In this document: positions 12,536 to 14,350 of the stretch, piece by piece
Position numbering within the stretch: the first letter of the stretch is position 1
Layout of the letters: the number at the start of each line of letters is the position of its first letter
Origin: Candidatus Bathyarchaeota archaeon
GTDB taxonomy: Archaea > Thermoproteota > Bathyarchaeia > Bathyarchaeales > Bathycorpusculaceae
Reading direction: 5' to 3'
DNA length: 64,000 nt
Assembly (NCBI GenBank): GCA_026414485.1
Contig: JAOAIX010000003.1
Location: 1-64,000 of the forward strand
Notes under the pieces: model-generated
Database searches by the model: none
Told to the model about the DNA's origin: nothing
What the model saw: the letters and a program-made list of their open reading frames with translations, nothing else
Program-made: the position numbers and the translations under genes

Positions 12536-13813
12536 CTAGTTTTTGAGCTGGTGGTTTGTTTCGAATTTTCCTTTAAGTTCATTTATGCGTTTTTTAATTT
12601 TTTCAGCGAATTCAGGAGTAGCTTCGAAAACAATTTGGATGTTGTTATTGCTGTAGTCAGTTTTTTTCACATCTGCTTCGGTGTGAACCCATGAAATGAG
12701 GGGCATGGCTTCGTTTGTAAGTGGGAGAGAAAAAGAAGCTTGAATGTAGCCTTCAAGTTTTTTCAATATTTCTTTTCGTAAATTGTCTATGTTTGTTCTG
12801 GTTAAAGCTGAAATTAAAATAGGGTTTTTTGTTGTCTCTTTGAGGGTGGCAAATTTTTGTTTTAGTTCGTCTTCTCTTAGTTTGTCAATTTTGTTGAACA
12901 CGGTTATTACTGGCACGTTTGATGCGCCGATGTGTTCTATAGTTTTGTGGCAAGTTTTGATTTTTTTCTCTATAATTTGCAGTGGTTCACTTATATCTAC
13001 AACTAAGAGTATAAGGTCAGAGTATATTGTCTCTTCCAGCGTGGAGTGGAACGCTTCAATTAAAGATAGAGGCAACCGATCAATGAAACCTACGGTATCA
13101 GTCAGCAAGAATCTCCGTTTGGAGAATTCTACGAGTCTTGTAGTAGTTGAAAGTGTGGTAAAGAGAGCGTTGTCTACACGTGTAGTTTGTTCAGCTAAAG
13201 CGTTAAACAACGAGCTTTTACCCGCGTTTGTGTATCCTGCGAGGGCTATGGAAGAAAAGCCTAGTTCAGCTCTTCGGTCACGGTGAAGAACACGTTTTTC
13301 TCGAACCCGTTTGAGTTTTTTCTGGATGGTGTGAATTTGCCGTTTGATGGCGTCAATGTAAACCTCAGCTTCGTAAACACCTAGACCCATGAATCCTGGC
13401 TGTTCACCCATTTTTGTTAAGCGAACTTTTTCTTTGGCGTGTTTAAGTTCATTTTTCTGCATTGCCAGTTGGATTTGTAGTTTGGCCTCGGTTGTCGTGG
13501 CTCTCCTTGTAAAAATTTCCAGTATTAGTTGAAAACGGTCTATTACTTCAACTTTTGTGGCTTTAGCCAGGTTATAAGCTTGCAGCGGTTTTAGGTTGTT
13601 GTCGAAAATTATTTTTTTTGCGTCTTTCTCATTTACTAAGTTGACAAGTTCTTCAACTTTGCCTGCGCCGATTTGATAGCGGGGATCAGGGCGCCGTGTT
13701 TGTTCAATTTGTCCTACAACCGTGTACCCTGCGGATTCAGCCAGATGTTTGAGTTCAGGCAGAGTTGATTCTTCACGGTTTAGTCGTCTTTGGACTATTA
13801 TTGCTTTCGTTAC
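12536..13813 (-). CDS. hflX: Ribosome-associated GTPase HflX, no canonical start codon
   Basis: About 425 residues. The N-terminal HflX domain is encoded at roughly 13463-13810: it begins KAIIVQRRLNREES, contains RPDPRYQIGAGKVEEL and the family motif DNNLKPLQAYNLAK, and ends TRRATTTEAKLQ. The GTPase domain follows with G1 GYTNAGKSS, G3 DTVGF and G4 NKID. HflX rescues or splits stalled ribosomes. The first in-frame ATG (13462) would delete the whole N-terminal domain. Between the aMBF1 stop (TGA, 13822-13820) and that ATG there is no ATG, GTG or TTG. GGAGCTGA at 13827-13820 resembles the GGAGGTGA ribosome-binding consensus and points to GTA at 13813, where GTG would be expected. It is in the same frame as aMBF1, one stop codon apart. 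Confidence 0.85.
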   Translation of the reverse strand, partial: VTKAIIVQRRLNREESTLPELKHLAESAGYTVVGQIEQTRRPDPRYQIGAGKVEELVNLVNEKDAKKIIFDNNLKPLQAYNLAKATKVEVIDRFQLILEIFTRRATTTEAKLQIQLAMQKNELKHAKEKVRLTKMGEQPGFMGLGVYEAEVYIDAIKRQIHTIQKKLKRVREKRVLHRDRRAELGFSSIALAGYTNAGKSSLFNALAEQTTRVDNALFTTLSTTTRLVEFSKRRFLLTDTVGFIDRLPLSLIEAFHSTLEETIYSDLILLVVDISEPLQIIEKKIKTCHKTIEHIGASNVPVITVFNKIDKLREDELKQKFATLKETTKNPILISALTRTNIDNLRKEILKKLEGYIQASFSLPLTNEAMPLISWVHTEADVKKTDYSNNNIQIVFEATPEFAEKIKKRINELKGKFETNHQLKN

Positions 13814-13819
13814 GAGGTG

Positions 13820-14350
13820 TCAGCTCCCTTTGTTTTTCTTGTCGAACTGTATAATGTCTCCAAGTGTCAACTCGTTTGCCACCTTTGTAGTTTTAGGCGG
13901 AGTTTTTTCCTCGGATACTGGAACGAGCAGCTTAATTTTTAGGATATGTTCAAGTTTTGACACAAGCAGATCGTTAGGTGCAACTTTACCGGTTTCAATT
14001 TTCCTAAGCAAAGATTCTTTTTCATTTATTTTTTTACCCAGTTCTTCGTGGCTCAACCCAGCTTTTTCTCTTGCTTGCCGTATTACTTCACCGTAGTCTT
14101 CCACAATTTCTTGTGTTGTATCCACTTTGGGTTGGAAAACTTTCTTTTTAATTGGGATCGAACCCATATTAGAAGTTAGGACGACTGAGGGAAGATTTGG
14201 TTTTTGGAGTTCAACTTTAGGTTTTGGCGCTTCTGACCAAGTGGTTGTCCCATGTTTGGCGCATTCGCGGCATACAGTCATTTTTGCGCCTTCAATTATT
14301 ACTTTGTTTGGGTTTTCGTGGATTTTACGTCCGCATACTTCGCATCGCAT
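13820..14350 (-). CDS. Archaeal multiprotein bridging factor aMBF1
   Basis: 176 residues. An N-terminal zinc ribbon (MRCEVCGRK, CRECAKHG) is followed by a disordered Pro/Lys-rich linker. A Cro/C1-type helix-turn-helix lies at about 85-140 (VIRQAREKAGLSHEELGKKINEKESLLRKIE). aMBF1 is known to bind TBP and the small ribosomal subunit. The stop TGA falls inside the ribosome-binding sequence of hflX, so translation of the two is probably coupled. The basic C-terminus ends KKNKGS. ATG at 14350 is the natural start because the zinc ribbon begins at residue 3. Confidence 0.92.
   Translation of the reverse strand: MRCEVCGRKIHENPNKVIIEGAKMTVCRECAKHGTTTWSEAPKPKVELQKPNLPSVVLTSNMGSIPIKKKVFQPKVDTTQEIVEDYGEVIRQAREKAGLSHEELGKKINEKESLLRKIETGKVAPNDLLVSKLEHILKIKLLVPVSEEKTPPKTTKVANELTLGDIIQFDKKNKGS

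Follow-up and report, generated by a model that had tools for sequence, protein, structure and literature searches.

The window analysed here, a stretch of 64,000 nucleotides from contig 27 of a Bathyarchaeia MAG (G000; 1.53 Mb in 33 contigs), raises the question of where translation of its hflX gene begins. This gene is encoded on the reverse strand, following its upstream partner aMBF1 (13820-14350, reverse strand; TIGR00270, 154 bits), and an hflX neighbourhood shared with mbf1 is likewise found in the Crenarchaeota (PMC3062615). The aMBF1 protein ends in ...FDKKNKGS, followed by a TGA stop codon (13822-13820), and from this TGA onwards the hflX frame is open, reading CAC CTC GTA ACG AAA GCA ATA ATA GTC CAA. 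As stated in a preliminary description of the locus, correctly in both coordinates and facts, neither ATG, GTG nor TTG occurs in this frame between the aMBF1 stop codon and an internal ATG at 13462-13460, and the ribosome-binding sequence GGAGCTGA (13827-13820) does overlap that stop codon. Six bases separate this Shine-Dalgarno (SD) sequence from the codon GTA (13813-13811), which had been proposed as the start, and nine separate it from the adjacent ACG (13810-13808). Comparison with about 100 relatives points to the latter as, very probably, the hflX start codon, giving a coding sequence of 424 codons plus the stop (12536-13810, reverse strand) in which the internal ATG represents codon 117 when ACG is counted as codon 1.

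The translated open frame matches the GTP_HflX equivalog TIGR03156 with 313.3 bits against a cut-off of 216.75, from residue 6 to residue 354, and the 116 codons ahead of the internal ATG are open and coding, as the preliminary description had held. The G-domain motifs GYTNAGKS and DTVGF are present with the N-terminal HflX domain ahead of them, and HflX chains in the PDB align with the window protein from residues 16-24 onward, the HflX proteins of Sulfolobus (PDB 2qtf and 3kxi) and of bacteria belonging to the same family. When hflX codons 2-116 of the window are compared with those of L002, its nearest relative, 20 differences fall on first, 15 on second and 61 on third codon positions, a pattern indicative of protein-level selection. 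Judged by its sequence, the gene codes for an ordinary HflX GTPase of which only the initiation codon is unusual.

Start codons of hflX among the relatives of the window

HflX genes were gathered at each rank from genus up to phylum, and the codons around their starts were compared. ACG occupies the start column in 100 of the 159 non-redundant hflX loci, all of which derive from MAGs and were sampled without phylogenetic independence. The window's order is represented in a maximum-likelihood tree by a fork of 113 HflX sequences, with an SH-aLRT support of only 90%, and within this clade the start column reads ACG in 97 members, ATG in three and GTG in one. Canonical hflX starts number five in the clade, including one ATG located one codon earlier, while 11 of the 113 members carry ATA (seven), ATT (one), CTG (one) or GTA (two, a possible start) at that earlier codon. 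Three lineages nested within the clade (L022, L062 and L102) have replaced ACG by ATG. Three further ACG-started genes occur in the sister families f16 and f19, while most other outgroup HflX genes, from the class and phylum, encode ATG, GTG or TTG exactly at the ACG column; a few start some codons earlier or cannot be placed. A near-cognate start is kept throughout the clade where the outgroups are mostly canonical, a pattern resembling that of bacterial infC.

Several features mark ACG as the start rather than an internal threonine codon, among them codon choice, which differs from that at other threonine positions. ACG makes up 99 of the 105 threonine codons in this column (94%). Its share is 16% among the 2,977 threonine codons of the hflX gene bodies, and at six further conserved threonine positions of the same genes it ranges from 10% to 41%. 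Where the start lies one codon upstream, as ATA, ATT or ATG in family f7, the threonine codon turns into ACA, ACC or ACT. A stop codon in the hflX frame is present one to three codons 5' of ACG in 23 of the 100 ACG loci (immediately 5' in seven), and 96 of the 100 lack a canonical start between the last in-frame stop and ACG, which argues that the missing canonical start in the window is not due to chance. Base conservation across the start regions comprises a GGAGG block at positions -15 to -11, a variable spacer, the ACG itself and then coding periodicity, and the usual pattern is GGAGG-N10-ACG-AAA-GCN-ATH-ATA-GTN-CAR-CGN-CGN. The SD sequence is nearly always located nine to ten bases 5' of ACG, and the 10-base gap falls within the range of ATG-started genes in two relatives. 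The 16S rRNA 3' end of one relative (G105) carries CACCTCCT and, as in archaeal starts reviewed previously, the GGAGG of hflX would pair with the 16S 3' end.

Two departures from this pattern were observed. In genus g43 (L103, L104, L237 and L238) the hflX start reads GTA-ATA or GTA-ACA, and GTA may be used as the initiation codon in this genus only. No canonical start is seen in hflX of L152 (family f25), which reads GGGAGGACAGAAATTCG-TTA-AGG and possibly starts at TTA or another unusual codon.

The aMBF1 overlap and other readings of the locus

A possible reason for the retention of ACG lies in the overlap with aMBF1, whereby ACG would be the start codon but would be held in place by the neighbouring gene rather than for regulation. 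Most commonly, aMBF1 ends in the +1 frame relative to hflX, 13 nt into the latter gene; elsewhere its TAA overlaps the first base of ACG (xTAACG), it ends upstream or it occupies other frames. Since hflX codon 2 begins with A, an ATG, GTG or TTG start would create a TGA in the overlapping aMBF1 frame, shortening aMBF1 by a few residues. At 62 loci aMBF1 passes through the hflX start in the +1 frame; 61 of these have ACG, and the lone ATG (L102) itself forms a new aMBF1 TGA stop. ACG is, however, also kept at 38 of the 53 loci free of frame conflict, the window among them, where only four canonical starts are found, and the overlap can thus not be the whole reason for its retention. The aMBF1 tail is, moreover, variable in length, so that its loss seems tolerable. 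The overlap is a possible reason, as far as the aligned loci indicate, for why ACG arose, while it is unlikely that ACG is kept by the overlap instead of for regulation. Unlike that of hflX, the aMBF1 start is freely variable in the same loci, with 60 TTG, 23 GTG and 21 ATG codons, and parsimony places 20 start codon changes on the tree for aMBF1 versus eight for hflX. In three loci of genus g38 (L088, L102 and L231), the conserved N-terminus of aMBF1 is itself encoded without a canonical start, the gene apparently using ATT or ATA as its first codon.

Initiation at GTA, favoured in the preliminary description, is very improbable. Its distance from GGAGCTGA would suit a start codon, and the g43 relatives L103 and L238 have GTA without an ACG next to it, but the six relatives from the window's own genus encode AAA, AAG, AGA, CAG, CAA and AGA in its place, followed in all six by ACG, and where GTA does precede ACG elsewhere it mostly belongs to the aMBF1 stop codon (G-TAA-CG). 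Nor is GTG, which had been expected at the GTA position, found there in any relative of the order; L176 has a GTG at the ACG column instead.

Equally improbable is C-to-U editing of the mRNA of the kind known from plant chloroplasts, which would convert ACG into AUG ahead of translation. This would fit the middle base, a C where relatives have T, but no mRNA C-to-U editing is, to our knowledge, known in archaea. Editing of ACG to AUG does exist in chloroplasts (PMC9845219), where, as in hflX, ACG is encoded at the place of AUG; the sister lineages of hflX differ in using ATA, ATT or CTG, which are beyond C-to-U repair to AUG and would stay unmended.

An aMBF1-HflX fusion, produced by readthrough of the TGA as previously suggested or by programmed frameshifting, is less probable still. 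The two genes share a frame in the window, with only the TGA between them, but among the relatives the frame relation varies (0, +1 and +2, with +1 prevailing) and the aMBF1 stop codon may be TAA, TAG or TGA, most relatives having the genes in different frames and TAA or TAG as the stop. The same-frame TGA of the window is thus a variant of local extent; no common frame and stop context was found among the relatives, as conservation of a readthrough fusion would require. Both the 23 loci with an hflX-frame stop within three codons 5' of ACG and the conservation of the GGAGG block at the aMBF1/hflX junction argue against a fusion. Finally, although the window derives from a MAG, a sequencing or assembly error (including the local indel or G/A misreading considered in the preliminary description) and initiation at ATG 13462 to give a truncated HflX can practically be dismissed, because some 100 loci of unrelated assemblies share this ACG, the codons preceding this ATG are under protein-level selection, and the first internal canonical codon is not conserved, its distance into hflX ranging from 4 to 140 codons.

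ACG and other unusual starts in further genes

Gene starts were further compared between the whole chromosome of G102 and 900 kb of G105, with the identities of rpl39e, rpl7ae and dnaG confirmed by NCBIfam. The rpl39e gene has an apparent ACG start in both G102 (414765, reverse strand) and G105 (509469, forward strand), within the pattern GGAGG-N8-ACG-GCA-AGA-AAC. As a second clade-wide case it was ruled out, given that 29 of 30 other relatives start rpl39e with ATG and one with CTG; the window's own genome starts it with ATG (L357). The rpl7ae gene of G102 (1138747, forward strand) has an ACG three codons after an in-frame TGA, with an ATC just 5' as an alternative, and that of G105 starts with ATG. 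In G105, dnaG, coding for a DnaG-type primase (386651, reverse strand), has ACG where G102 has ATG, with an in-frame TGA three codons 5' and the next canonical start 18 codons inside. On these alignments the ACG starts of rpl39e, rpl7ae and dnaG appear to be isolated cases, which may reflect errors in individual MAGs. A genome-wide count of the codons that follow GGAGG ahead of open frames did not place ACG above background, suggesting that ACG starts are rare. The translation machinery of the window's order nevertheless appears, from its gene sequences, to accept ACG, and clade-wide retention is, among the genes compared, a feature of hflX only.

Other unusual starts were noted in the same comparison. 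The rpoN gene of G105 (471027, reverse strand) lacks a canonical start, with ATA, ATT and GTT as candidates, while in G102 two genes, one of them mcm (190968 and 1015685, both reverse strand), show CTG at the site of an ATG or GTG in G105.

Initiation at ACG and its possible role

The reading preferred here, with a probability of about 0.87, is that HflX is translated from ACG through near-cognate initiation that is placed by the SD sequence and probably coupled to aMBF1. The position of the start, its conservation, the SD spacing and the close packing with aMBF1 are established by comparative sequence analysis. The SD sequence would place the 30S subunit at the hflX start, some of the subunits arriving from terminating aMBF1 translation, whose stop codon lies within about 16 nt, and the initiator Met-tRNA (anticodon CAU) would pair with ACG with tolerance of the middle-base mismatch, giving an HflX protein that begins with Met. 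A search for a special tRNA with ARAGORN on G102 and the 900 kb of G105 yielded a tRNA-Thr(CGU) with the look of an ordinary elongator, in a list that contains no tRNA-Met and is hence incomplete. A conserved RNA hairpin at the hflX start was not detected by RNAalifold on 100 aligned start regions.

It is less certain that selection maintains the weak ACG because it keeps HflX synthesis low, or lets it respond to the stringency of initiation, for which aIF1/aIF2 activity and the supply of free 30S subunits may be the inputs. A ribosome-splitting factor would in this way be subject to a control loop analogous to the one that acts through the AUU start of infC in bacteria. Given that HflX splits ribosomes in bacteria (PMC4770234) and that archaeal aIF1 destabilises wrong initiation complexes (PMC7531240), an infC-like loop based on codon stringency is plausible. 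The chances that ACG is kept for a regulatory purpose are put at slightly below even, and the fuller proposal, that ACG is both a working start codon of Bathyarchaeia and an archaeal regulatory device setting HflX by start-codon stringency, is a little more tentative again.

The AUU start of the bacterial infC gene, coding for IF3, is conserved over a large group. Both infC and hflX are translation-factor genes in which a clade-conserved near-cognate start replaces AUG, GUG or UUG. They differ in the gene concerned, in the codon, with ACG mismatching at the middle base, and in the aIF1/aIF2-type initiation of archaea, and autoregulation is known for infC alone, where autocontrol in E. coli is lost once AUU is changed to AUG (Butler et al. 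1987, as cited by PMC9845219). The hflX start also shares with the ACG starts of eukaryotes and their viruses the probable use of initiator tRNA at ACG with a middle-base mismatch. The eukaryotic and viral starts rely on scanning, whereas the ribosome would be placed at hflX by the SD sequence and probably by translational coupling. Initiation at ACG has been described for a mammalian reporter and the Sendai virus P/C mRNA (Peabody 1987; Curran and Kolakofsky 1988, both as cited by PMC9845219), and for a luteovirus small ORF (PMC4422679). For archaea, the relevant part of a 2020 review gives AUG, GUG and UUG as start codons, and the terms 'ACG' and 'non-AUG' are absent from its text (PMC7531240). 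Searches of the open-access literature did not turn up an archaeal gene described as starting with ACG.

Because ATG, GTG and TTG are the only starts that gene finders allow, HflX would be truncated in annotation by up to about 140 residues across the order; other ACG-started genes would be mis-annotated in the same way. The hflX ACG provides a natural case for the study of start codon discrimination by aIF1 and aIF2, and the occurrence of a near-cognate start across the clade in the gene of a factor that splits ribosomes suggests, by analogy with infC, that start-codon-based regulation may occur in archaea.
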